The notes beneath the pieces were generated by a model that was not told where the DNA came from, made no database searches, and worked only from the letters and a program-made list of their open reading frames with translations. Below, one piece after another: positions 8,207-30,590 of a DNA stretch of 33,259 nucleotides; the stretch's first letter is position 1, and each line of letters starts with the position of its first letter. The position numbers were made by a program, and so were the translations under genes. This DNA is from Megasphaera sp. NM10 (lineage in GTDB: Bacteria > Bacillota > Negativicutes > Veillonellales > Megasphaeraceae): assembly GCF_000417505.1 (NCBI RefSeq), contig NZ_APHY01000061.1:3-33261 (forward strand). Direction: 5' to 3'.

Positions 8207-8905
8207 TTATTTCAATGGCCGCATTTTGCCAACGCAGCGTTCATCTTGCTGGTGGTCCATCATTTCGACGCGGTGCTGCAAGAGGGCTACCTGATGCTGC
8301 AGGGCGATGATCTGATCTTCGATGGGGTCGGGCAGGCGGTTGTGGTTGAGGTCGACGTCGCGTTCGCTGTGGCTGGCCTTGAGGCGCTTGCCTTTCTGGA
8401 CGACGACGCGGCCCGGGATGCCGACGACTGTCGAGTACGGCGGCACTTCTTTGAGGACGACGGAACCGGCGCCGATTTTTGAGCTTTCGCCGACGGTGAA
8501 GGACCCGAGGACCTTGGCGCCGCAGGCGACGACGACGTAGTCGCCGATGGTCGGATGGCGTTTGCCCTTTTCCTTACCCGTCCCGCCGAGGGTGACACCC
8601 TGATAGAGGGACACGTTGTTGCCGATGACCGTCGTTTCTCCGATGACGATGCCCATGCCATGGTCGATGAACAGGCCTTCGCCGATTTGGGCGCCGGGAT
8701 GGATCTCGATGCCCGTGAAGAAGCGGGAAATCGTGGAAATGAGGCGTGCCGTGACGAACCACTGATGCTTATAGAAGAAGTGGGCCAGGCGATGGGCCCA
8801 GATGGCATGAAGGCCGGAATAGCAGAGCAAGACTTCCAGCGTGTTCTTGGCGGCTGGATCGCGGTCCTTGATGACGCGAATGTCGTTGCGAAGTGATTTG
8901 AACAT
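8207..8905 (-). CDS. cysE: Serine O-acetyltransferase
   Basis: It acetylates serine with acetyl-CoA, the first committed step of cysteine synthesis, and supplies CysK. The 232-aa protein has the N-terminal helical SAT region ([18 protein letters not shown]) and a left-handed hexapeptide beta-helix ([18 protein letters not shown], then VIGETTVIG and further imperfect hexapeptides). The catalytic Asp-His pair is in IDHGMG. A tail of about 50 residues after the helix (from about ERDVDLNHN) includes a glutamine/histidine-rich, probably coiled-coil segment. AGGAGGG precedes the ATG. Expression is probably governed by the T-box leader immediately upstream. Confidence 0.95.
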
Positions 8906-8940
8906 GGCGTAGCGCCCTCCTGTGTCGTAAAAAAGTAAAT

Positions 8941-9185
8941 AAAAAAAGACCTGCCGTCATACAGAGACGGTGGTCCGTGGTTCCACTCTGATTGCAGTCT
9001 TTCGACTGCCACTCAATACCCGTAACGGCGGCAACCGGGATGACCTACTCACGTTCAATCATCCTGCTCCCAAAGGCATTCCATCACATTCAACTTCGAT
9101 AGGGGCTTTCAGCCGGTGGCCCTTACTCTCTGTGCCGTTATCCTGTGTGTACTTGTTTTGGTCATTGCATTTTTGTTTTCGTGTT
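8941..9185 (-). promoter_or_regulatory. T-box riboswitch leader of cysE, probably tRNA-Cys specific
   Basis: On the minus strand the leader has a stem I base TAACGGC/GCCGTTA, an AGAGAGTAAGG (AG-bulge) element, the specifier context GGAATGCC with TGC (Cys) at 9078-9076, and the conserved T-box sequence AGAGTGGAACCACGG (8989-8975). The terminator is GACC-A-CCGTC ... GACGG-CA-GGTC followed by seven T. Uncharged tRNA-Cys would stabilise the antiterminator and allow cysE transcription. The T-box and terminator are clear; the specifier is assigned from the GAA-NNN context. Confidence 0.85.
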
Positions 9186-9191
9186 GAACAC

Positions 9192-9220
9192 ATGATACCC
9201 CTTCACAGGACGTTTGTCAA
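9192..9220 (-). promoter_or_regulatory. Strong promoter for the cysE T-box transcript
   Basis: Minus-strand TTGACA (9220-9215) and TATCAT (9197-9192) with a 17-base spacer; the -35 is a perfect consensus match. Confidence 0.8.
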
Positions 9221-9318
9221 TAGAAAAATTGTAAAAAGATGACAAAATTGGTGTCTTATTCAAAAAGGCCGATAGAATCACGTTCTTTATATATCCATAT
9301 AAGGGATTTGCCGTTTTT

Positions 9319-9386
9319 CGTTCATCGTTCGTCGTAACCAGGGCTTTTGTTTTTTTCGACCTACGACGAACGGCCTGCGATGAACG
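9319..9386. repeat. Palindromic CGTTCATCG repeat, copy 1
   Basis: CGTTCATCGTTCGTCGTA is followed after 25 bases by TACGACGAACGG and CCTGCGATGAACG, nearly its reverse complement with a short insertion. A second copy with the identical right-arm segment GACGAACGGCCTGCGATGAA lies at 29116-29198. Confidence 0.7.
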
Positions 9387-9737
9387 ATGTTTTCATAAAG
9401 ACTCATTATTTTTGATTAAATTTGTCTGCATACAATATCCATGTTTAGTAGATATGAATTGTATTCTCTACAATCAATCGTATACTGTAAAGCAAAATGA
9501 GCTTAATATGAGATAAAGTAATTTAAAAAATCTAAAAATATCATTACAAAAACATATCCTTTAGCGTGGTTAAGCGAAGTATATAGCGTAAATAAGCCAT
9601 TTTTCTGAAAGGCTTATTGATAAAAAGCATGGAGTGTTAAAAGAACACCATATTAGTAATGAATGAGCTAATAACAAAAACAGCATAGATGACCATTCAA
9701 GGTTTCTCATTTTGTATTACCCATTTTTCTATACTTA
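9387..9737. other. AT-rich gene-free stretch with two small hairpins
   Basis: No credible gene is seen. Two perfect inverted repeats stand out: AATAAGCC/GGCTTATT (9591-9598 and 9611-9618) and GTGTT/AACAC (9634-9638 and 9644-9648). They could belong to a small RNA or a long leader, but nothing identifies one. Confidence 0.4.
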
Positions 9738-9765
9738 TTGCACTTTGCGCATGAAATGGTATACT
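9738..9765 (+). promoter_or_regulatory. Predicted promoter of the lactate/menaquinone/ETF gene run
   Basis: TTGCAC (9738-9743) and TATACT (9760-9765) with a 16-base spacer. The -35 lies inside an imperfect palindrome TGCACTTTGCGCAT, a motif that recurs as TGCACTTTGTGCAT at 32989-33002. A repressor bound here would cover the -35. Confidence 0.6.
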
Positions 9766-9830
9766 TATGTTAAATACTTTACTTCATAGTATTCGTTGTA
9801 GTTGTGATTTATAAGTAAAGAGGTGTGAAA

Positions 9831-10376
9831 ATGGAAAAGACAGAATTGTATGAAACATTCCAGAAAGGGTTGACCAGCGTCAACGGCGAAAGTTACATCG
9901 CCAAAAAAGCAGACGTTGCTGCAACTCTCACCAAAATTTTCCAGGACAAGGACACACATGAAGTTGCCCTCGTTGAAACGCCGCTCCTGAAAGAAATCGG
10001 CGCTGTAGACGCATTGAAAGCCGCAGGCATCAAAGTGGATACGGATCACTTCCGCAAGAATGCCCCGGACGACAAAGGCGGCGTTACCGAAGCCGATTAC
10101 GGCATCGCCAACTTGGGCTCCATTGTCCAGATGAAGGACGACATCGACTGTCGTATCGTTGAAACGGTATCGGACGTCTATGTCGGCATCGTCAAACTTT
10201 CTAAGATCGTCGATACTTTCGATGACATGATCGACATCATGGCCGAAACGAAACCGTTCCCGAAATTCGCCGGTATCATCACCGGCCCGAGCCGGACAGC
10301 TGATATCGAATGTGTCGGTACTGTAGGGGTTCATGGCCCGCGTCAGTATTCGGTCATCGTCGTAGAAGATGCGTAA
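9831..10376 (+). CDS. lutC: LUD-domain protein, LutC-like lactate utilization subunit
   Basis: A 181-aa protein of the LUD (DUF162) family, the LutC/YkgG subunit of the Fe-S L-lactate oxidation complex. The C-terminal motif GPSRTADIE followed by GVHGPRQYSVIVVED is characteristic. No Fe-S cysteine motif is present, as expected for LutC. ATG 9831 is chosen: AGAGG lies 7 bases upstream, whereas the in-frame GTG at 9825 overlaps that site. The gene for the LutB-LutA fusion follows 15 bases later. Function in lactate oxidation is inferred from the family and context. Confidence 0.85.
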   Translation: MEKTELYETFQKGLTSVNGESYIAKKADVAATLTKIFQDKDTHEVALVETPLLKEIGAVDALKAAGIKVDTDHFRKNAPDDKGGVTEADYGIANLGSIVQMKDDIDCRIVETVSDVYVGIVKLSKIVDTFDDMIDIMAETKPFPKFAGIITGPSRTADIECVGTVGVHGPRQYSVIVVEDA

Positions 10377-10391
10377 GGGAGGGAACAGCAC

Positions 10392-12554
10392 ATGTCTAAC
10401 GAATTACTGAAGCAAGAAATCGAGCGCGCCATGGATAATGCGCCGCTGCAGAAGGCGTTGAAGAACTTTACGACAGCTTATCCTGGCAACCGTGCAAGAG
10501 TTTACAAAGGATATGACTTTGAAGCGCTTCGTGAGAAAGTCCATGAAGTAAAATCCTATGCTCGTGACCATCTGGACGAAGTCATGGCCGAATTCATCAA
10601 GAATGCGGAAGCCAACGGGGCTCACGTATTCGTCGCTCATTCTCCGGAAGAAGCTATGGACTATGCTTTGAAACTGGCAAAAGACAACAACGTCAAACTT
10701 TGCGTTAAGTCGAAATCCATGGCATCGGAAGAAATGCACTTCAACCAGAACTATGAAAAAGCAGGCATTACGGCTCAGGAAACGGACTTGGGCGAATTCA
10801 TCAACTCCATCGCTGGTGATACGCCGTCCCACATGGTTATGCCGGCTATTCATTATTCTAAAGAAGACGTTGCCGACCTCTTTGAATCGTATACGAAACA
10901 GCCGGAAGAACCGGTCATCACGAAAGAAGTCAAGACGTCCCGCCGCGTCATGCGTCCGAAATTCCTCAGCGCTGAAATGGGGGTTTCCGGTGCCAACGTC
11001 GCTGTCGCTGAAACGGGGACAGTCATTACCATGACGAATGAAGGCAACGGCCGTATGGTCGCAACCCTTCCGAAAACGCACTTATATATCTTTGGTATTG
11101 AAAAATTCGTCGCTAAGATGAGCGATATCCGCTACATCTTCAAAGTACTGCCTCGTAACGGTACAGCCCAGAACATCACGGCATACCTTTCCTTCTACAC
11201 GGGCGCTACGAAAGTCGTTACGGATCCGGAAAACGATACGAAGGAAGACAAGAACTTCCACATGATCATCCTCGATACGCCGGAACGCCGTAAGATCATG
11301 GCCAGTGAAGATTACAAAGATATCTTCTGCTGCATCCGCTGCGCTGCCTGCCTGAATGTATGTCCGGCCTTCCGCCTCGTCGGCGGCCACGTATATGGCG
11401 GCTCCATTTATACCGGCGGTATCGGCACGCTGCTCACGAGCTTCCTCAACAGCCGTGAACGCGGTAAAGATATCCAAAACATCTGTCTCCAGTGCGGTAC
11501 GTGTAACACAGTCTGCGGCGGCAAACTCGATATTGCCGGCATGATCCTGAAATTACGTACGAAATTCGCTCAGGAAGATGGCCTCAATCCGGTCCATAAA
11601 TTCTGTCTCGATACGGTTGCTGACCGTCACCTCTTCCACTCTATGCTGCGCATCGCTTCCGTTGCTCAGGGCATGATTACCAAAGGTCAGCCGATGATCC
11701 GTCATCTGCCGATGTTCTTGTCCGGTCTGACAGCAGGCCGCAGTCTGCCGAGCGTTGCTCCGCAGCCGTTCCGCGATATCCTGCCGACAATCAAACAGGA
11801 TGTTCCCAATCCGAAGGGCAAGATCGCTATCTTCACGGGCTGTCTCCTCGACTTCGTCTATGTCGACATCGCAACGGACGTCGTCAAAGCCCTCAACATG
11901 GCTGGCTATATCGTAGAAATGCCGCTTGGCCAGGCTTGCTGCGGTGCTCCGGCTACCTATATGGGCGATGTTGAAAACGCCAAGAAAGCTGCTGAAATGA
12001 ACTTGAACGCTATGGAAGCTGAAAAATACGATTACATCGTATCGGCTTGCCCGACTTGTACGCATGCCCTCCGCGATTATGTCGACTTCTTCAAGGACGA
12101 TCCGGAAATGCTCAAGAAAGCGGAAGCACTCCGCAGCAAGACCTTCGACTTCTGCAAACTCGTTTCCATGCTCGGCGGCTTGCCGGATACCGGCGATGGC
12201 GTACCGATGAAGGTCACCTATCACGACTCCTGCCACTTGAACCGTTACCTCGGCGTCACCAAGGAACAGCGTGAACTCTTGAAAGCTACCAAGGGCGTCG
12301 AACTCATCGAAATGCACGATTGCGATAAATGCTGCGGCTTCGGTGGTTCTTACTCCGTTAAATTCCCTGAAATGTCGGCTCCGATCCTCGAAGAAAAGAT
12401 CAACAACATCGTCGCTTCTGGCGCAGATGTCGTCGCTGTCGACTGCCCGGGCTGCTTGCTCCAGATCCGTGGCGGCCTCGATGCTCGCGGCTTGAACAAC
12501 ATTCAGGTTAAACACACAGCACAGATCGTCGTTGAAAAACGCGAAAAAAAATAG
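10392..12554 (+). CDS. Lactate utilization Fe-S protein, LutB-LutA fusion
   Basis: A 720-aa protein that joins in one chain the activities usually split between LutB and LutA. Residues about 1-290 form the LUD domain. Two [4Fe-4S] motifs follow: Cys314/317/320/324 (CIRCAACLNVCP) and Cys365/368/371/375 (CLQCGTCNTVC). The C-terminal third holds two CCG cysteine-rich domains with CC pairs at 516-517 (QACCGAP) and 647-648 (CDKCCGFGGS), as in LutA, GlpC and HdrB. It should pass electrons from lactate oxidised to pyruvate to a carrier or quinone. GGGAGGGA precedes the start. The quinone-synthesis genes directly downstream support a membrane-quinone acceptor, though this is inference. Confidence 0.88.
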   Translation: MSNELLKQEIERAMDNAPLQKALKNFTTAYPGNRARVYKGYDFEALREKVHEVKSYARDHLDEVMAEFIKNAEANGAHVFVAHSPEEAMDYALKLAKDNNVKLCVKSKSMASEEMHFNQNYEKAGITAQETDLGEFINSIAGDTPSHMVMPAIHYSKEDVADLFESYTKQPEEPVITKEVKTSRRVMRPKFLSAEMGVSGANVAVAETGTVITMTNEGNGRMVATLPKTHLYIFGIEKFVAKMSDIRYIFKVLPRNGTAQNITAYLSFYTGATKVVTDPENDTKEDKNFHMIILDTPERRKIMASEDYKDIFCCIRCAACLNVCPAFRLVGGHVYGGSIYTGGIGTLLTSFLNSRERGKDIQNICLQCGTCNTVCGGKLDIAGMILKLRTKFAQEDGLNPVHKFCLDTVADRHLFHSMLRIASVAQGMITKGQPMIRHLPMFLSGLTAGRSLPSVAPQPFRDILPTIKQDVPNPKGKIAIFTGCLLDFVYVDIATDVVKALNMAGYIVEMPLGQACCGAPATYMGDVENAKKAAEMNLNAMEAEKYDYIVSACPTCTHALRDYVDFFKDDPEMLKKAEALRSKTFDFCKLVSMLGGLPDTGDGVPMKVTYHDSCHLNRYLGVTKEQRELLKATKGVELIEMHDCDKCCGFGGSYSVKFPEMSAPILEEKINNIVASGADVVAVDCPGCLLQIRGGLDARGLNNIQVKHTAQIVVEKREKK

Positions 12555-12586
12555 GCAATAACGTTGGCCGGAAAGGTAAATAGAGC

Positions 12587-13615
12587 ATGATGATAAAACA
12601 GACACTCTTAGAAACCAGCGCCCGGAAGTTTATGCCCAAATTGTTTGCCGGTATCAGCGATGACCAGGTCCGCAGAGTGAAAGAGTATATAAAACTATAT
12701 ACGCAGCATCCCTTTGAAGGTACAGCCACTGGCGCTGTCCTCGACGATGCAGCCTCTTCGCAGGGGAAGATGATCCGTCCCCGCCTGGTACTGATGGCCG
12801 GCTCGTTCGGAACAGACCGCGACGATGTGCGGGAGCGGTTGTATAAACTGGCGGCCGTAGTGGAAATGACCCATCTGGCCTCACTGATCCATGACGATAT
12901 TGTCGACGATGCACCGGTCCGGCGCGGCAAGCCGTCGGTGCAGAGCAAGTACGGGAAGAACGCAGCCGTCTATGCCGGCGATTTCCTGATGAGCCGCATC
13001 ACCTTCTACTTGATGCGCGAGGGATTGAACCGGGCAGGTATGGTCATCGCCCAGGTTGTAGAGGAAATGTGTGCCGGCGAAATCGGCCAGGCCATGTGCC
13101 GCTATAAAGAGGACGTCACTATTGACCAATATCTGCAGAACATCCACGGCAAGACCGTCGCCTTGTTCCGCGCCTGCTGCCGCATCGGTGCCATGGAAAG
13201 CGGTTGTGACGAACGGGTATCGCGGATGCTCGAGTCCTTCGGCGAATGTCTGGGCTATATGTTCCAGATGCGCGACGACCTCCTCGACTTCGTACCCGAT
13301 AGTTCGATGATTGGCAAGAAAGCCCACCAGGATTTCCGCGAAGGGATCTATACCCTGCCGGTCCTCCTGGCACGGGAACAGCCCGGCGGCCGCCGGCTCC
13401 TCTACCCCTATATGGAAAGGAGCGCCGAAGGGACGCTGACTCATGCGGATATCTGCCGCATGGAAGAAATCGTCGCAGCCCTGGGCGGCCTGGAAGGCGC
13501 GTGGAACCAGATCCACACCTACCAGAAACGGGCTGAGGACATCCTCGAAGCCCTGCCGTCAAGTGATATTTCCCTGCAGCTCGGCAAGATCGTACGTAAG
13601 CTGGGGGCCGTGTGA
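12587..13615 (+). CDS. hepT: Trans-polyprenyl diphosphate synthase
   Basis: A 342-aa isoprenoid chain-elongating enzyme that probably makes the side chain of menaquinone. The first Asp-rich motif is IHDDIVDDAPVRRGKPS and the second is MRDDLLDF, each followed by the usual context (KKAHQDFREGIYTLPVLLA). Starts at 12587 and 12590 (ATGATG) are equally possible. It sits 32 bases after the lactate-oxidation gene and abuts menA. Chain length cannot be read from the sequence by eye, so the symbol is given for the family; an octaprenyl or nonaprenyl product is possible. Confidence 0.85.
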   Translation: MMIKQTLLETSARKFMPKLFAGISDDQVRRVKEYIKLYTQHPFEGTATGAVLDDAASSQGKMIRPRLVLMAGSFGTDRDDVRERLYKLAAVVEMTHLASLIHDDIVDDAPVRRGKPSVQSKYGKNAAVYAGDFLMSRITFYLMREGLNRAGMVIAQVVEEMCAGEIGQAMCRYKEDVTIDQYLQNIHGKTVALFRACCRIGAMESGCDERVSRMLESFGECLGYMFQMRDDLLDFVPDSSMIGKKAHQDFREGIYTLPVLLAREQPGGRRLLYPYMERSAEGTLTHADICRMEEIVAALGGLEGAWNQIHTYQKRAEDILEALPSSDISLQLGKIVRKLGAV

Positions 13616-14548
13616 ATGGAACAGCAACATTGCTTAACACCTAAGCTGGCCGTTCGCCTGGCTGCACCGCACACCTGGCTGGCTTCTGTATATCCCGCCG
13701 TATTCGGTGAACTGTATTGCCTCCTGAAGGGCTACCCCCTTACGGGGACGCTGGCCATCACCCTCTTTTGGGCCTGCGTCTTCATGCAGTCCGCCGTCAA
13801 TACGCTGAATGATTATTTTGATTTTGTAAAAGGCACGGACACTGCCGACGACAACGTCGAGGTGAGCGACGCCGTCCTGGTTTATGAAAACATCAAGCCT
13901 GGACAGGCATTGGCTTTGGGACTTGGCTACTTAGTTGCAGCCGGTCTCCTGGCCTTGCCGGCACTGGTCACAGCCGGACCGGCGCCGCTGATCATCGGCG
14001 TCATCGGAGCCATCGCCGTATGGACCTATTCCGGTGGTATCCTGCCGATATCCTATCTGCCGATTGGCGAGTTCGTTTCGGGCTTTGTCATGGGCGGCCT
14101 CATCCCCATGGGAATCGTCGCCGCCGTCAGCAGTACCTTCGATTTTTCCGTTTTGCCTGCGGCTCTGCCCTTCATCATCAGTATCGGTCTCATCATGATG
14201 ACCAATAATACGAGTGATATTGAAAAGGACAGGCAGGCCAAGCGCCGGACCTTACCGGCACTCTTGGGAAGGACTCAGGCCGTCCGCCTGTACCGGGCTG
14301 CCGTATGGATCTGGATGGCACTCATCTGCCTCCTGCCCGTATGGTATATCGGTTGGTGGGGCCTCATCAGCCCGGCTTTCTTTATCGTGTTTGCCCGACA
14401 TACCTTTGTCAATCTGCTTCAGTCGCCTCTGGAACCGCAGGGGCGGGTGAAACAGATGAAAGGTATCATCGCCGCCAATCTCTTTGGCAACGGTGCCTAT
14501 CTGTTAGCACTCGCGATGGTCCTCTTCGGAGGTGGTACTTTTGGCTGA
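13616..14548 (+). CDS. menA: 1,4-dihydroxy-2-naphthoate polyprenyltransferase (UbiA family)
   Basis: A 310-aa membrane prenyltransferase joining the polyprenyl chain to dihydroxynaphthoate. The two Mg-diphosphate-binding motifs are present: NTLNDYFDFVKGTD (NDxxDxxxxxD type) and NNTSDIEKDRQAKRRTLP (DxxxD plus basic residues). Eight or so hydrophobic segments are visible. Its ATG follows the hepT stop with no gap and it has only a weak purine-rich site, implying translational coupling. The neighbours hepT and menG favour menA over other UbiA paralogues. Confidence 0.88.
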   Translation: MEQQHCLTPKLAVRLAAPHTWLASVYPAVFGELYCLLKGYPLTGTLAITLFWACVFMQSAVNTLNDYFDFVKGTDTADDNVEVSDAVLVYENIKPGQALALGLGYLVAAGLLALPALVTAGPAPLIIGVIGAIAVWTYSGGILPISYLPIGEFVSGFVMGGLIPMGIVAAVSSTFDFSVLPAALPFIISIGLIMMTNNTSDIEKDRQAKRRTLPALLGRTQAVRLYRAAVWIWMALICLLPVWYIGWWGLISPAFFIVFARHTFVNLLQSPLEPQGRVKQMKGIIAANLFGNGAYLLALAMVLFGGGTFG

Positions 14549-15251
14549 ACTCTCAAAACGGGAGAAGGTATATCATGTATTCCAGCAGATTTCCCAGACT
14601 TATGACCGCGCCAACGGGCGCATCAGTCTCGGCATGGAAAGCCGTTGGAAAGACTGCCTCATCGAAGCTGTCTGTGAGCAGGCAGCCAAGGGCAGCCGTG
14701 TCCTGGATGTGTGCAGTGGCACTGGGGACATCGCTATTTCCCTGGCAGCGCACCGGCCGGATCTCAAGGTCACTGGCCTCGATTTTTCGCCGGCGATGCT
14801 CGACGTAGCCCGCAAAAAAGGCGCGCCGCTTGCTAACGTTACCTGGCAGGAAGGTGATGCCATGAACCTGCCTTTTGAGGATAATACCTTTTCGGCAGCC
14901 TGTATCTCCTTCGGGCTTCGCAACACATCGGACTACCTGCGCGTCCTGCAGGAAATGACCCGCGTCGTCGTTCCCGGCGGCTGGGTATATTGTCTCGACT
15001 CCTTTGTCCCCGATTCTCTGGTCATCCGGCCCTTTTATTCGGTGTACTTCCGGTATGTCATGCCCTTCCTGGGCGGCGGCTTCCGCCATCGGCAGGAATA
15101 CACCTGGCTGTGGCAGTCGACGCAGGATTTTCTCAGGAAGAAGGAGCTCCTGGACTTGTTTGGACAAGCCGGATTGATTGACAGGCAGATGAAAAGCCGC
15201 TTATTTGGGGCCTGCGTGCTCCACAAGGGGAAGAAGCCTGCGGTCGAATGA
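14541..15251 (+). CDS. menG: Demethylmenaquinone methyltransferase (UbiE/MenG)
   Basis: A SAM-dependent methyltransferase for the last step of menaquinone synthesis. The 236-aa product shows VLDVCSGTGDIAISLA (SAM motif I), LDFSPAML, and the UbiE signatures YDRANGRISLGM and ISFGLRNTSD. The likely start is TTG at 14541, because GGAGGTGG (14528-14535) sits just upstream; a GTG at 14532 would overlap that site. With this start the gene overlaps the menA end by 8 bases. It completes a hepT-menA-menG cassette. The genes making dihydroxynaphthoate are not in the window. Confidence 0.9.
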   Translation: MAELSKREKVYHVFQQISQTYDRANGRISLGMESRWKDCLIEAVCEQAAKGSRVLDVCSGTGDIAISLAAHRPDLKVTGLDFSPAMLDVARKKGAPLANVTWQEGDAMNLPFEDNTFSAACISFGLRNTSDYLRVLQEMTRVVVPGGWVYCLDSFVPDSLVIRPFYSVYFRYVMPFLGGGFRHRQEYTWLWQSTQDFLRKKELLDLFGQAGLIDRQMKSRLFGACVLHKGKKPAVE

Positions 15252-15338
15252 AGGATTATGAAAAGGACTTACATTACGTTACGATAGATACGAACGGAAA
15301 TTAAGATAGCAAACCGTATGGTTAAGGAGGGTAAGAAC

Positions 15339-16634
15339 ATGAGTAGTGAAGAAAAATTTGATGCCATCGTGGTTGGCGGCGGTTTAGCTGGTTCTGCTGC
15401 AGCCTTGACAATGGCCAGAGCTGGTTTGGATGTTATGATGGTGGAGCGCGGTAAATTCTGCGGTTCCAAGAACTCCAGCGGCGGCCGTCTCTATGGACAC
15501 AGCTTGGAAAAACTGATTCCGAATTTCGCAGCAGAAGCTCCGATTGAACGTAAGATTACGCAGGAACGCCTGTCGCTCATGACAGAAGGCGGCGCACTGA
15601 GCTTCCAGTATGGTTCGGATAAACTGGAAAACCTCAAATATCCGTCCTACTCGGTACTGCGTTCTAAATTCGATAAATGGTTGGCCGATAAAGCCGAAGA
15701 AGCCGGCGTCATGCTGACAGAAGGCTTCCTCGTCGATAAACTGGTCGTCGAAGACGGCAAAGTCATCGGTGTCATGACGGGCGGCGAAGAATTCGACGCT
15801 GATGTCGTCATCCTGGCTGATGGCGTCAACTCCCTGCTGGCACAGCAGATCGGCATGAAGAAAGAACTGGAACAGAAAGACGTTGCAGTCGGCGTCAAAG
15901 AAGTCATCGAACTCGGTGAAGACGTCATCAACGAACGCTTCGGTTTGAGCGGCAACGACGGCGCAGCCTGGATGATGGCTGGCGACCCGACGGGCGGCAA
16001 CCTCGGCGGCGGCTTCATTTACACCAACAAAGACAGCCTGTCCCTGGGCATCGTTACGACCATCAGCGATATCGGCCGCGTCGATGTCAGCGTACCGGAC
16101 ATGGTTGAACGCATGAAAGCTCATCCGGCTATTGCTCCCTTCATCAAAGGCGGGAAACTGAAAGAATATTCGGCTCACCTCGTTACCGAAGGCGGCCTCA
16201 AGATGATGCCGGAACTCGTCCGTGACGGCGTCCTCGTCGCTGGCGATGCAGCAGCTATGGTCGTTAACCTGGGTTACACCGTCCGCGGCATGGACCTGGC
16301 TATCGAATCGGGCCGTCTGGCTGGCGAAGCCGTCATCAAAGCGAAGAACCGCAACGACTTCTCGGCTGAAAGCCTCTCGGTTTACAAGACCTTGTTAGAA
16401 GAAAGCTTCATCATGAAGCTCATGAAACAGTATCAGAACCTGCCGGGCCTCTTGGAAGATCACATTATCTTCAACGATTTCCCGAAGATGGCCGACGAAT
16501 TTGCCGGCATGGTCTACAAAGTAGACGGCGGCGCACCGGTCGCTCTGCCCATGATTGCTCTGACAGTTTTGGCAAACAACGGCGGCTTGGCTAATCTCTT
16601 CGATTTAGGTAAGAAAGCTTGGGAGGCGATGTAA
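15339..16634 (+). CDS. fixC: FixC-type electron-transfer-flavoprotein:quinone oxidoreductase
   Basis: A 431-aa FAD protein of the ETF-QO/FixC family that passes electrons between ETF (FixAB-like) and quinone. The N-terminus has AIVVGGGLAGSAAALTMARA, followed by the family motif KNSSGGRLYG. A distal FAD region contains VAGDAAAMVVNLGYTVRGMD. The ATG at 15339 is preceded by AAGGAGGGTAAG; the longer frame from 15318 runs through this site. An 87-base gap separates it from menG with no obvious terminator. fixX follows after one base. fixA/fixB are not in the window. Confidence 0.93.
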   Translation: MSSEEKFDAIVVGGGLAGSAAALTMARAGLDVMMVERGKFCGSKNSSGGRLYGHSLEKLIPNFAAEAPIERKITQERLSLMTEGGALSFQYGSDKLENLKYPSYSVLRSKFDKWLADKAEEAGVMLTEGFLVDKLVVEDGKVIGVMTGGEEFDADVVILADGVNSLLAQQIGMKKELEQKDVAVGVKEVIELGEDVINERFGLSGNDGAAWMMAGDPTGGNLGGGFIYTNKDSLSLGIVTTISDIGRVDVSVPDMVERMKAHPAIAPFIKGGKLKEYSAHLVTEGGLKMMPELVRDGVLVAGDAAAMVVNLGYTVRGMDLAIESGRLAGEAVIKAKNRNDFSAESLSVYKTLLEESFIMKLMKQYQNLPGLLEDHIIFNDFPKMADEFAGMVYKVDGGAPVALPMIALTVLANNGGLANLFDLGKKAWEAM

Positions 16635-16635
16635 G

Positions 16636-16920
16636 ATGGCAAAGATGAGTGTAGACGATAAACTGGGTTTCGATAAGTTCGTGACCGATGAACACGAATC
16701 TCATATCCAGATCAACGAAGATTATCATGACGAAGCAGAAATCAAACGCTTAGTCATGGCATGTCCGGCTAACCTGTATCACTATGATGACGGCAAACTG
16801 GTCTTCAGTCATGAAGGCTGCCTCGAATGTGGTACGTGCCGCGTCATTTCCGGCGGCAAAGGCGTAAAGAGCTGGAAACATCCGAAAGGCGCTATGGGCG
16901 TAGAATTCCATCAGGGCTGA
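16636..16920 (+). CDS. fixX: FixX-like ferredoxin
   Basis: A 94-aa ferredoxin partner of FixC. It carries MACPANLY and a C-terminal Cys cluster GCLECGTCRVI, enough for one [4Fe-4S] cluster in the FixX/ETF-QO C-terminal arrangement. The ending WKHPKGAMGVEF is typical of the family (W..P.G..GV.F). It is the last gene of the run and is followed by a strong terminator. Confidence 0.93.
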   Translation: MAKMSVDDKLGFDKFVTDEHESHIQINEDYHDEAEIKRLVMACPANLYHYDDGKLVFSHEGCLECGTCRVISGGKGVKSWKHPKGAMGVEFHQG

Positions 16921-16935
16921 TCGCAGAGGGAAAGT

Positions 16936-16970
16936 AAAAAAGGCTTGTCGCATGTGCGGCAAGCCTTTTT
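16936..16970 (+). terminator. Terminator after fixX
   Basis: AAAAAAGGCTTGTCGCA, centre TG, TGCGGCAAGCCTTTTT. Same core as the other family terminators. Confidence 0.85.
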
Positions 16971-16974
16971 ACTT

Positions 16975-17157
16975 TGTAGGGGTCGCCACGTGGGCGACCC
17001 GTTAGAACTTTGGATGAGTTCCCTAGCAAACTGGCTGGGGGAATCACATATATCCTCAAGCGGGCTCGCCCTCTACATTGGTCCGTTTCAGCAACCGTCC
17101 TGCCATTCCTTGTAGTCATGGCCTGACGGGCTGAAAAGGCACGTGCGAGCCCCTACA
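16975..17157. repeat. TGTAGGGG intergenic repeat, long copy
   Basis: It begins TGTAGGGGTCGCCACGTG and ends CACGTGCGAGCCCCTACA, so the ends are inverted. The right module (17088-17157) is almost the exact reverse complement of the left module of the copy at 26696-26858. Confidence 0.75.
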
Positions 17158-17177
17158 ACTAAAAATTGGAGAAATTC

Positions 17178-17222
17178 GCACGAGCCACGAACTACGAGCC
17201 ACCAGCCCCTAGCCACAACCCT
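17178..17222. repeat. Heptanucleotide tandem tract
   Basis: Successive 7-base units ACGAGCC, ACGAACT, ACGAGCC, ACCAGCC, CCTAGCC and a diverged end; same family as 7027-7054. Confidence 0.6.
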
Positions 17223-17230
17223 CCCCGGCA

Positions 17231-17260
17231 TGTACACGGGCGATGCATATATGGTATAAT
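17231..17260 (+). promoter_or_regulatory. Predicted promoter of the metallo-hydrolase/DUF445 genes
   Basis: TATAAT (17255-17260) with a weaker TGTACA -35 (17231-17236) at 18 bases, about 45 bases before the start codon. Confidence 0.5.
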
Positions 17261-17306
17261 AAAAAGTATGCAATAGCCATTAAACAACCGATAAGGGGGT
17301 TACTAT

Positions 17307-18005
17307 ATGAGTGTACAGATTACCTTTTTGAATCACAGCGGCTTTGCCGTCGAGACCGATTCCAAGGTGCTGGTCTTTGATTACTACAAGGATCCATCGG
17401 GGACGGTCAAGGCTTACAGCCAGGTCGGCAGGAAGCCGTTGTGGTTCTTTGTCAGCCATTGGCACGAAGACCATTTCAACCGCAGCATCGGCCAGTTCGG
17501 CGGTGCCCAGTACATCGTCAATGAAGATGTGCGCCTCAAGGACATTCCGGCAGACCGGTTCCATGCCATGAAGTTGTATGAAACGCTGCCCCTGGGAGAT
17601 ACGACGGTGACCCAGTATGGGTCGACTGATGAAGGCGGGTCGTTCCTGGTGGAAACGGACGGCTTGAAGATTTTCCATGCCGGCGACTTGAACTGGTGGC
17701 ACTGGCTCGGCGATACGGATGAAAATAATGCCGAAGCCAAGAGCAACTTCGACCGGGAAATGAAACACCTTGCCGGACAGACTTTCGACATTGTCTTTTT
17801 CCCTGTCGACGCCCGCCTGGAAGGCGCCCGCGAATGGGGCGTCACGGGTTTCCTGAAAGACGTTTCGGTCACGAAATGCCTCATCCCCATGCATTATTTC
17901 GGCACGCCCTGGACGCCGTCGGCAGCTTTTAAACAGGCTTATCCGGACGTACCCTTGTGGATTCCCCAGCATGATGGCGACGACGTCATCATCGGCGGGC
18001 AGTAA
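17307..18005 (+). CDS. Metallo-beta-lactamase-fold hydrolase, UlaG/COG2220-like
   Basis: A 232-aa cytoplasmic protein with the metal-binding signature FVSHWHEDHFNRS (HxHxDH) around residue 51, a second metal site at FHAGDLNWWHW, and a distal histidine region (IPMHYFGTPW). The Leu-Asn-His-Ser-Gly-Phe start fits the UlaG-like group of predicted phosphodiesterases and lactonases. The substrate is unknown. A GGGGG-containing site precedes the ATG, and the first DUF445 gene follows after 9 bases, so the three genes probably form an operon. Confidence 0.85.
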   Translation: MSVQITFLNHSGFAVETDSKVLVFDYYKDPSGTVKAYSQVGRKPLWFFVSHWHEDHFNRSIGQFGGAQYIVNEDVRLKDIPADRFHAMKLYETLPLGDTTVTQYGSTDEGGSFLVETDGLKIFHAGDLNWWHWLGDTDENNAEAKSNFDREMKHLAGQTFDIVFFPVDARLEGAREWGVTGFLKDVSVTKCLIPMHYFGTPWTPSAAFKQAYPDVPLWIPQHDGDDVIIGGQ

Positions 18006-18014
18006 GGAGGTATC

Positions 18015-19289
18015 ATGGCAAGTAATACACACGGGGGCAGACGCAGCCAGATTGCCAATTATATCCTGATTACGGCGGCAGTCCTCCTGCTTCTGGCATA
18101 CCCCTTCCAAGACTTTTTTGTCGGCGGACTGCTGACCCATCTGGCCGGGGCGGCCCTCATCGGCGGCCTGGCAGACTGGTATGCCGTAACGGCCCTGTTC
18201 CGCCGGCCTTTGGGCATCTCCTTTAAGACGGCCCTCATTCCGAACAGCAAGGAACGCATTGCCGAAATGGCCCGGCATATGATCGAATATGAAATCCTGA
18301 CCGTTTCCAATATGTACAACGTCCTCAAACATCATCCCATCCTGGGCGCGACGCTGGATTATCTCCATACGGAAAAGGGGTTCCAGTCGGCAGAACGCGT
18401 CTTCGGTCAGATCCTCAATACCTTCTTGTACACCATCGACATGAAGACCGTCGTCAAGGCCTTTGCCGGCATCGGCGGCCAGGCTATCGAGAAAGTCGAC
18501 CTGGCACCGATCATGAGCAAGGCCATCAAAATCGGCCTGCGCGGTGAATCGGGGAAGGATTTCCTCGATTTCATGATCCTCAACCTGGAAGACCTCGTGC
18601 GCAGTGAAACGATGAAGCGCTATGTCGGCGAAATCTACGAAGCCTCCCTGCGCCAGTACGCCAAGCACAATATCTTCCTCGGCTGGGCCATCAAGGCGGC
18701 CTTGAAGATGGAAGTCTTCCAGCCGGACCACGTAGCCGGCCTCTTGCAGACGAAGTGCCTGGACCTCCTGGCCGAAGCCAAGGAAGACAATTCCCTACAG
18801 CGCCAGCAGGCCCTGCGCTATTTGTGGAAACAGACGGAAAAGATCGAATTCAACGACGAATGGCGCCAGCGCATCGACAGCTATAAGAACCGCATGTACA
18901 ACAGCCTGGTCACGCGGCCGGACACGAAAGAAGCCTGGCAGCGCTACGTCCAGGACCCGGAACGGCAGAAGCGGGTCTGCAAGGTCGCAGCTAATTACGT
19001 CATCAATAAACTGGAATCGTGGCGCCAGAGCCCAGACCAGGTGGAACATATGAACCGCCAGGCCCTGGCCTTTGCGGCCCGCGAATTGAAGCGTCTCCAG
19101 GTCTGGTTCGGCAAGACGGCAGAACAGGAAATCCTGAAATACGACGGCAATTACCTGGCAGAACAGCTGGAAAACAGTGTCTGGTATGACCTGCAGATGA
19201 TCCGCGTCAACGGTTCGCTCGTCGGCGCCATCCTGGGTGCCGTCATTTACCTGGTCATGTACGCCGTGAAGGGAGGGGCTATCTTATGA
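18015..19289 (+). CDS. DUF445 membrane-anchored protein 1
   Basis: A 424-aa protein of the DUF445 (YjiN/YheB) family. N-terminal membrane segments (ILITAAVLLLLAYPF, then the glycine-rich LAGAALIGGLADWYAVTALF) are followed by a long helical, charged middle region and a C-terminal membrane anchor (VGAILGAVIYLVMYAV). GLADWYAVTALFRRPLG is the family signature. The function of the family is not established. TAAGGAGG immediately precedes the ATG. Its stop overlaps the next gene's start (ATGA), so the two paralogues are translationally coupled and may form a hetero-oligomer (inference). Confidence 0.88.
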   Translation: MASNTHGGRRSQIANYILITAAVLLLLAYPFQDFFVGGLLTHLAGAALIGGLADWYAVTALFRRPLGISFKTALIPNSKERIAEMARHMIEYEILTVSNMYNVLKHHPILGATLDYLHTEKGFQSAERVFGQILNTFLYTIDMKTVVKAFAGIGGQAIEKVDLAPIMSKAIKIGLRGESGKDFLDFMILNLEDLVRSETMKRYVGEIYEASLRQYAKHNIFLGWAIKAALKMEVFQPDHVAGLLQTKCLDLLAEAKEDNSLQRQQALRYLWKQTEKIEFNDEWRQRIDSYKNRMYNSLVTRPDTKEAWQRYVQDPERQKRVCKVAANYVINKLESWRQSPDQVEHMNRQALAFAARELKRLQVWFGKTAEQEILKYDGNYLAEQLENSVWYDLQMIRVNGSLVGAILGAVIYLVMYAVKGGAIL

Positions 19290-30292: not shown

Positions 30293-30590
30293 AAAAAAAA
30301 CTCCGCCCCTTCTGTAAGGGACGGAGTATAATTCCGCGATACCACCCTGATTCCCGGCGCATTGCTGCAGCCGGACTCTCTACAACGTACCAACATACGC
30401 GTTTCTGGTAACGGTGAAATGCCGTCGGCGCCTAATGAAATTCAGCGTCGATCTTCGGAGAGGAGCTTCATCAGTATCATCGTACTGGCTCGCACCGGCC
30501 GCCAGCTCTCTGAAAAGCAATGGTACAGACTACTTTCTCTCGTCATTAGATTTACGAATATTTCGCTTCACGGTTTGTTTCCTGAAGCTT
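30293..30590 (-). promoter_or_regulatory. T-box riboswitch leader of ilvCBN
   Basis: Minus strand: AG-bulge element GAGAGAAAGTA, distal AGAGAGCTGGCGGCCGG, a specifier region GATGAAGCTCCTCTCCGAAG, the T-box AATCAGGGTGGTATCGCGG (30352-30334), and a terminator CTCCGTCCCTT ... AAGGGGCGGAG followed by eight T. The specifier is probably CTC (Leu, 30465-30463); the register GAA-GCT (Ala) cannot be excluded by eye. Low charging of the tRNA would allow read-through into ilvC. Confidence 0.9.

Follow-up and report, generated by a model that had tools for sequence, protein, structure and literature searches.

A gene block joining an LdhH-type lactate dehydrogenase with late menaquinone genes and fixCX in Megasphaera sp. 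NM10, and its possible role in lactate oxidation

The window analysed here, a stretch of 33,259 nucleotides from contig NZ_APHY01000061.1 of Megasphaera sp. NM10, harbors seven genes arranged head to tail on the forward strand (9825-16920), namely a lutC-like gene, ldhH, hepT, menA, menG, fixC, and fixX, which encode lactate dehydrogenase (LDH) proteins, enzymes of late menaquinone synthesis, and an electron transfer flavoprotein (ETF):quinone oxidoreductase with its ferredoxin-like partner. Judged from gene families and gene order, these seven genes could quite plausibly form one module, in which lactate would be oxidized onto a menaquinone finished from an imported ring precursor, and in which FixCX, the flavoprotein EtfAB, and an enoyl-CoA would serve as the electron outlet. 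Megasphaera species are lactate users of the rumen and gut, and a putative LDH operon with menaquinone-finishing genes, in a genome where ring genes were not found, would make lactate removal a possible case of vitamin cross-feeding. In the genome of origin (G000; 2.61 Mb, 99.85% complete), the block lies on contig C61 with the following features.

9738-9765, forward strand: sigma-70-like promoter-like site (TTGCAC-16 nt-TATACT) upstream of lutC, read in the sequence
9825-10376, forward strand: LUD-domain protein, LutC-like, 183 aa from GTG 9825 (PF02589, 83.4 bits, cut-off 22.6)
10392-12554, forward strand: LdhH, L-lactate dehydrogenase (quinone) large subunit, 720 aa (NF045670, 998.5 bits, cut-off 800)
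12587-13615, forward strand: HepT-like polyprenyl diphosphate synthase (PF00348, 202.4 bits, cut-off 27)
13616-14548, forward strand: MenA-like UbiA prenyltransferase (PF01040, 107.9 bits, cut-off 34.2)
14532-15251, forward strand: MenG/UbiE demethylmenaquinone methyltransferase, overlapping menA by 17 bases (TIGR01934, 229.9 bits, cut-off 158.35)
15339-16634, forward strand: FixC, ETF:quinone oxidoreductase flavoprotein (NF007450, 501 bits, cut-off 466)
16636-16920, forward strand: FixX, ferredoxin-like subunit with four cysteines, suggesting one 4Fe-4S cluster (NF011993, 85.6 bits, below the cut-off of 166)
16931-16975, forward strand: terminator-like hairpin with a T run 3' of fixX (fold -27.5 kcal/mol, z -7.08)

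Profile matches and coordinates bore out the seven genes as the initial annotation had placed them, in one direction and with overlaps or short gaps; the intergenic distances are 15, 32, 0, -17, 66 (87 when counted from the FixC start at 15339), and 1 bases. Within the Megasphaeraceae, 10 of the 17 genomes have LdhH, and it is precisely these that also have MenA. The seven-gene order was found on one contig in eight of these, and it is otherwise kept in the other two, where the contig breaks off as fixC begins (G012) or the block is split over two contigs (G016). FixC exceeded 600 bits in nine block genomes, in the tenth the contig stops after the first 19 residues of FixC, and the seven genomes without the block gave FixC matches of at most 24 bits or none; one extra FixC paralogue occurs in G001. 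On an EtfAB tree covering 15 of the 17 genomes (that EtfAB pair being missing or incomplete in G010 and G015), the presence and absence of the block require three changes, and strongly supported branches make two of these necessary, indicating that the whole block was gained or lost more than once in the family.

Beyond the family, the same order was found in four loci of metagenome-assembled genomes (MAGs) labelled Lachnospiraceae or Clostridiales (L009-L012), with identities to the window of 66% for LdhH, 57-59% for FixC, 49-52% for MenA, and 48-51% for HepT. L009 is nearly a copy of L010, whose sequence starts within lutC; L011 and L012 share downstream ArsA-type genes, which speaks against a binning accident. 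These four belong to 21 non-Megasphaera loci whose neighbours were examined. The examined set, L007-L029 (L030-L086 left out), comprised two Megasphaera loci (L007 and L008, which are the G001 and G012 assemblies and are counted once) and the four MAG loci with the block, plus 17 loci without it. As 80 of 125 confirmed loci were kept from a search with six exact peptide patterns, the block may well be more widespread outside Megasphaeraceae than these counts, which are minimum values. Hence the physical coupling claimed by the initial annotation holds beyond its own genome, in all ten family genomes with LdhH and MenA and in the four MAG loci. The gene-order survey that it had proposed for other Negativicutes showed the order in the ten family genomes and lutC by ldhH at all 20 other Negativicutes loci examined, there with hepT, menA, menG, fixC, and fixX absent within about 1.5 kb. 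In this survey (300 class genomes sampled; for each protein the 20 top non-family loci, with flanks of about 1.5 kb), the closest LdhH from outside the family has 46% identity, and for MenA the corresponding value is 37% or less. The LdhH tree places Megasphaeraceae and MAGs together against 20 other Negativicutes (SH-aLRT 100), and the MenA tree likewise unites them (SH-aLRT 95) with long branches elsewhere; both are quick trees with one kind of support, and in the LdhH tree the two Megasphaeraceae genera and Lachnospiraceae meet in an unresolved fork. The conserved order is more than chance, and the simplest reading of the comparison would be a transfer of the entire block between these two lineages. 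At three late-menaquinone loci without the block, where menA adjoins menG (L026-L028), no lactate or ETF enzyme was found among the 14 neighbour proteins scanned.

With regard to lactate, LdhH combines a LUD domain, a 4Fe-4S dicluster domain, and two CCG stretches (PF02589, PF13183, PF02754) and belongs by family to the quinone-linked L-lactate dehydrogenases, so that quinone-dependent L-lactate oxidation is predicted. The gene described in the initial annotation as a LutB-LutA fusion is thus real, and its architecture is already known as LdhH; for the neighbouring protein, called LutC-like, the LUD domain was confirmed, and the NCBIfam search returned no equivalog-level match. The LUD-type dehydrogenases LutABC and LldEFG have the same LUD, Fe-S, and CCG architecture with an adjoining LUD partner. 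The start of the lutC-like gene is more likely ATG 9831 than GTG 9825, as AAAGAGGTG is conserved upstream of ATG 9831 in the aligned leaders.

The three families of the late menaquinone pathway, polyprenyl synthase, UbiA, and UbiE, were all detected over their cut-offs (PF00348, PF01040, and TIGR01934). HepT shows both Asp-rich motifs in 14/14 loci and scores 192.5 bits against TIGR02748, below the cut-off of 456.55. Apart from the menA product, no UbiA match in the own genome exceeds the cut-off, and the top NCBIfam matches of this protein are menA models, all under cut-off; the pattern NDxxDxxxD occurs in none of the 14 loci, and by eye the window protein reads NDYFDFVKGTD, with DIEKD as the second motif. 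The MenG motif was found in 12 of 13 loci. A MenA-MenG fusion considered for G005 from a 555-aa open frame was rejected on account of a stop after MenA residue 305.

As for the naphthoquinone ring, the searches for early genes covered MenB, MenD, and MqnA/D, and in Lachnospiraceae/Clostridiales genomes MenD only; in 14 known genomes serving as controls, MenD was over cut-off in 7, Mqn in 4, and MenB in 7. Among the 17 family genomes, neither MenD (with weaker matches in all 17) nor MqnA/D exceeded the cut-off in any, and MenB did so in one (G014), which is not the genome of the window. MenD was likewise over cut-off in 0/4 genomes of L009-L012, 0/3 of L026-L028, and 0/2 of L007 and L008. No sign of a complete Men or Mqn pathway, in the form of MenD, MenB, or MqnA/D over cut-off, was therefore detected in the own genome, which pairs late genes with the lack of these matches, as in genomes that salvage 1,4-dihydroxy-2-naphthoate (DHNA), and seems to encode just the latter half of the menaquinone pathway. 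Late genes without the tested early genes suggest dependence on imported DHNA, the likely source of the ring, as in Lactiplantibacillus plantarum, which according to part of the text of PMC10746273 contains MK-6 and MK-7 when given DHNA and no quinone otherwise. Passages of Ravcheev and Thiele (PMC4746308) also propose that others supply the DHNA for genomes in which menA and menG are the sole genes of the pathway. The present block resembles such Lactobacillus-type salvage in having late genes without early ones, whereas exogenous quinones serve extracellular electron transfer in L. plantarum and the finishing genes here lie inside a putative LDH operon. The Listeria locus for extracellular electron transfer, with its own dmkA/dmkB, similarly places quinone genes with one electron-transfer locus, but it contains NADH dehydrogenase and flavin-based export rather than LDH and FixCX. 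The initial annotation was accordingly right in part. It had coupled the LDH to the making of its possible quinone acceptor, and hepT, menA, and menG are indeed there; the correction is that the ring is probably imported. It had also taken a lack of dihydroxynaphthoate synthesis genes as evidence against its coupling, and the tested genes were indeed not over cut-off, which is read here as DHNA import and not as a refutation.

The FixCX pair appears to be of the E. coli type with a one-cluster FixX. FixC passes NF007450, does not reach the cut-off of the E. coli FixC model (NF007542, 492.1 bits versus 610), and shares 53% of 398 aligned residues with E. coli FixC; FixX is 46% identical to E. 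coli FixX, which also has four cysteines. The most likely FixC start is 15339, given a conserved ribosome-binding site and ATGAGT. FixABCX of E. coli acts in carnitine metabolism (crotonobetaine reduction), and the block differs from it in lacking fixAB and in being joined to lactate and late menaquinone genes instead of cai genes. The strongest competitor to the module outlined above, though an unlikely one, is that FixCX and EtfAB form a bifurcating complex resembling EtfABCX, in which NADH would reduce ferredoxin and menaquinone, or which would run in reverse to yield NADH from menaquinol and reduced ferredoxin, with lactate sharing the quinone pool; in sum, two enzymes would together bring about a lactate-driven reduction of NAD. 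FixC and FixX have homologues in EtfC and EtfX of Thermotoga maritima (the nearest PDB chain of FixC is 7koe_C, T. maritima EtfC, and FixX matches 7koe_D at E 4e-15), whose EtfABCX bifurcates with menaquinone, according to sections of PMC10734219. In addition, parts of PMC12051018 propose a link of EtfABCX, menaquinone, and lactate for Moorella, and parts of PMC10320503 describe the EtfAB of Megasphaera elsdenii as the bifurcating type. However, the same sections of PMC10734219 give EtfX two clusters, and the block FixX has too few cysteines for the second (four in the window and in eight more Megasphaeraceae rows, five in the four Lachnospiraceae/Clostridiales rows). Moreover, no etfAB adjoins fixCX, the EtfAB pairs of the genome lying on contigs C22 and C60 and the block on C61, and forward bifurcation needs another menaquinol outlet, for which SdhB/FrdB was not over cut-off in the own genome. 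The Moorella scheme further differs in its NAD-dependent LDH, in the portion of PMC12051018 that describes it, whereas lactate here would enter by LdhH.

A second FixX-FixC pair was observed in G001 (contig C144, L205 1301-7704), with a FixX paralogue of 11 cysteines. On the same strand of this stretch lie a Fer4_5 protein, a second HepT-like synthase, and an FMN-dependent lactate oxidase-like protein, and no MenA match was found in the stretch; it is another neighbourhood of a lactate-type enzyme, a polyprenyl synthase, and FixCX.

For the electron route within the proposed module, LdhH and the LutC-like LUD protein would oxidize lactate to pyruvate and pass the electrons to menaquinone. HepT would make the side chain, MenA would join it to DHNA obtained from other microbes, and MenG would methylate the MenA product to menaquinone. 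FixC-FixX would then reoxidize menaquinol and hand the electrons to one of two EtfAB pairs, and EtfAB would reduce an enoyl-CoA (acryloyl-CoA or crotonyl-CoA) via an acyl-CoA dehydrogenase. Two EtfAB pairs were indeed found in the own genome, one adjoining an acyl-CoA dehydrogenase. The route from lactate through menaquinone, FixCX, and EtfAB to enoyl-CoA is favoured by the LdhH family, the one-cluster FixX, the negative result for SdhB/FrdB, and the potentials, which descend energetically from lactate (-190 mV) through menaquinone (-74 mV) to crotonyl-CoA (-10 mV) in passages of PMC5861303 and PMC10734219. Two directions had been offered in the initial annotation, lactate electrons entering menaquinone or menaquinone driving lactate oxidation through ETF; the former is favoured, and the one-cluster FixX and the lack of SdhB/FrdB over cut-off suggest that FixCX-EtfAB is the outlet and not a second inlet. 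The block would thus offer fermentation a membrane quinone between lactate and enoyl-CoA. As an aside, the acyl-CoA dehydrogenase by EtfBA in the own genome (contig C22, L195 8274-9424) occupies two reading frames in this draft assembly, and five further genomes that were examined have both of its parts in a single frame, so the split is a frameshift or a sequencing error.

Menaquinone might instead serve a quinol oxidase, such as cytochrome bd, or another reductase, with lactate and ETF as two inputs of a small respiratory chain, which we consider rather improbable. Enzymes of the LdhH and FixC kinds can both feed quinone, and G005 combines the block with an SdhB/FrdB over cut-off. Nevertheless, SdhB/FrdB stayed under cut-off in the other nine of the ten block genomes, the own genome included, with cytochrome bd outside this genome search, and none of the ten proteins scanned at 8207-19289 is a terminal oxidase. 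SdhB/FrdB was over cut-off in three genomes without the block.

It is less probable still that the ring is made in the cell by an unrecognised route, or that the product is another prenylated quinone, so that no dependence on neighbours would exist. The early-gene searches were confined to MenB, MenD, and MqnA/D, MenA lies below all equivalog cut-offs, and G014 has a MenB over cut-off. Against this, MenG is over cut-off, and the block MenA falls into one clade with the MenA of Adlercreutzia, where MenD was over cut-off in two of the three genomes tested. The third, Adlercreutzia sp. ZJ304 (L018), has MenA with MenD below cut-off and is perhaps a late-pathway-only genome or an assembly gap. The MenB-type enzyme of G014 (L003 1393-2289, 417.8 bits) was rejected as a sign of a full pathway, as it is a lone gene and MenD is not over cut-off there.

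The block is not uniform in composition. Compared with the window, and with the near-copy G002 set aside, the remaining six members of the genus show identities of 47-71% for hepT, menA, and menG, and of 84-90% for ldhH and fixC; by a codon index with EtfAB as reference (two genes only), lutC, ldhH, fixC, and fixX reach 0.57-0.65 and hepT, menA, and menG 0.35-0.36, the other window genes spanning 0.42-0.70. This split fits abundant electron carriers together with a scarce biosynthetic set. The differing codon bias and faster divergence of hepT, menA, and menG would also suit a mere neighbourhood of genes each serving general metabolism, a view that is very improbable given the order kept at 48-66% identity between Megasphaeraceae and the Lachnospiraceae/Clostridiales loci and the repeated gain or loss of the whole block.

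Several observations nonetheless weigh against the lactate-menaquinone-FixCX module. According to passages of PMC5861303, the isolated LDH of M. elsdenii passes electrons to EtfAB and then, with butyryl-CoA dehydrogenase, to crotonyl-CoA; this LDH reduces EtfAB itself, so a quinone is in principle unneeded. There, as with Acetobacterium LctBCD in the same passages, lactate electrons likewise go to or through EtfAB, but these systems are flavoprotein LDHs working with EtfAB and have no quinone step. EtfAB is encoded outside the block, six of the seven non-block genomes also have at least four ETF matches, and the block is absent from 7 of the 17 family members. In PMC6374331, the legend of a figure includes a fumarate reductase in the lactate scheme of M. 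elsdenii; SdhB/FrdB was not over cut-off in G000 or in its 99% relative G002. Moreover, MenA, HepT, and FixX do not reach the NCBIfam cut-offs of the models that match them best, and the ring-gene negative covers MenB, MenD, and MqnA/D, without MenF/C/E/H or a DHNA transporter. Adjacent genes can go in one deletion, so the block behaves as one piece, and its co-loss is no independent proof of shared function. Finally, the codon split, with its two-gene reference and other window genes in between, would also fit separate promoters, and one promoter may not account for all expression of the block.

Joint transcription from lutC to fixX is nevertheless suggested, indirectly, by the shared strand, the short gaps, the promoter-like site, and the hairpin. 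The terminator that the initial annotation saw behind fixX was supported by this strong hairpin with its T run, none of 200 shuffles being equally stable. A TTG...TATACT pair with the same spacing precedes lutC in six of nine aligned leaders, the six including two close-relative pairs. Automated scans of the window were less telling, in that the simple pattern scan for terminators did not list the hairpin, the consensus promoter scan did not list the site at 9738-9765, with which the region given in the initial annotation begins, and the pattern scan gave 9 internal terminators versus a mean of 9.1 in shuffles and 9 promoters versus 7.6. A promoter in the menG-fixC gap was considered and rejected, as visual inspection of the aligned gaps showed a ribosome-binding site and no conserved -35/-10 pair.

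In terms of wider meaning, lactate use may depend on a vitamin K2 precursor supplied by neighbours. It is possible, though more tentative than the module itself, that the block is a horizontally shared, self-contained module of 'enoyl-CoA respiration' in fermenters without ring synthesis, which would obtain the quinone head group only from neighbours, and that Megasphaera and certain Lachnospiraceae would need cross-fed DHNA to remove lactate. The parts are known, and their combination was not met in the literature searched. Titles and abstract openings of open-licence literature held none on this operon, which is no proof of novelty; the main text of PMC8914356, a survey of gut-bacterial lactate genes, does not contain 'menaquinone' or 'quinone', a term search of the accessible text of PMC4746308 gave no mention of Megasphaera, and the single mention of menaquinone in the portion consulted of the review PMC11406415 concerns Desulfovibrio.

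In the flanks scanned, CysE is encoded upstream on the opposite strand, and a metallo-hydrolase and a DUF445 protein downstream, with no evident tie to the block; cysK and a second DUF445 gene were named by eye. Two T-box leaders on the reverse strand exceed the Rfam gathering score, one before cysE (8960-9174, 108.8 bits) and one at 30314-30555 (137.9 bits). Between cysE and lutC, a long imperfect palindrome was seen by eye (9317-9392), possibly a small mobile repeat.

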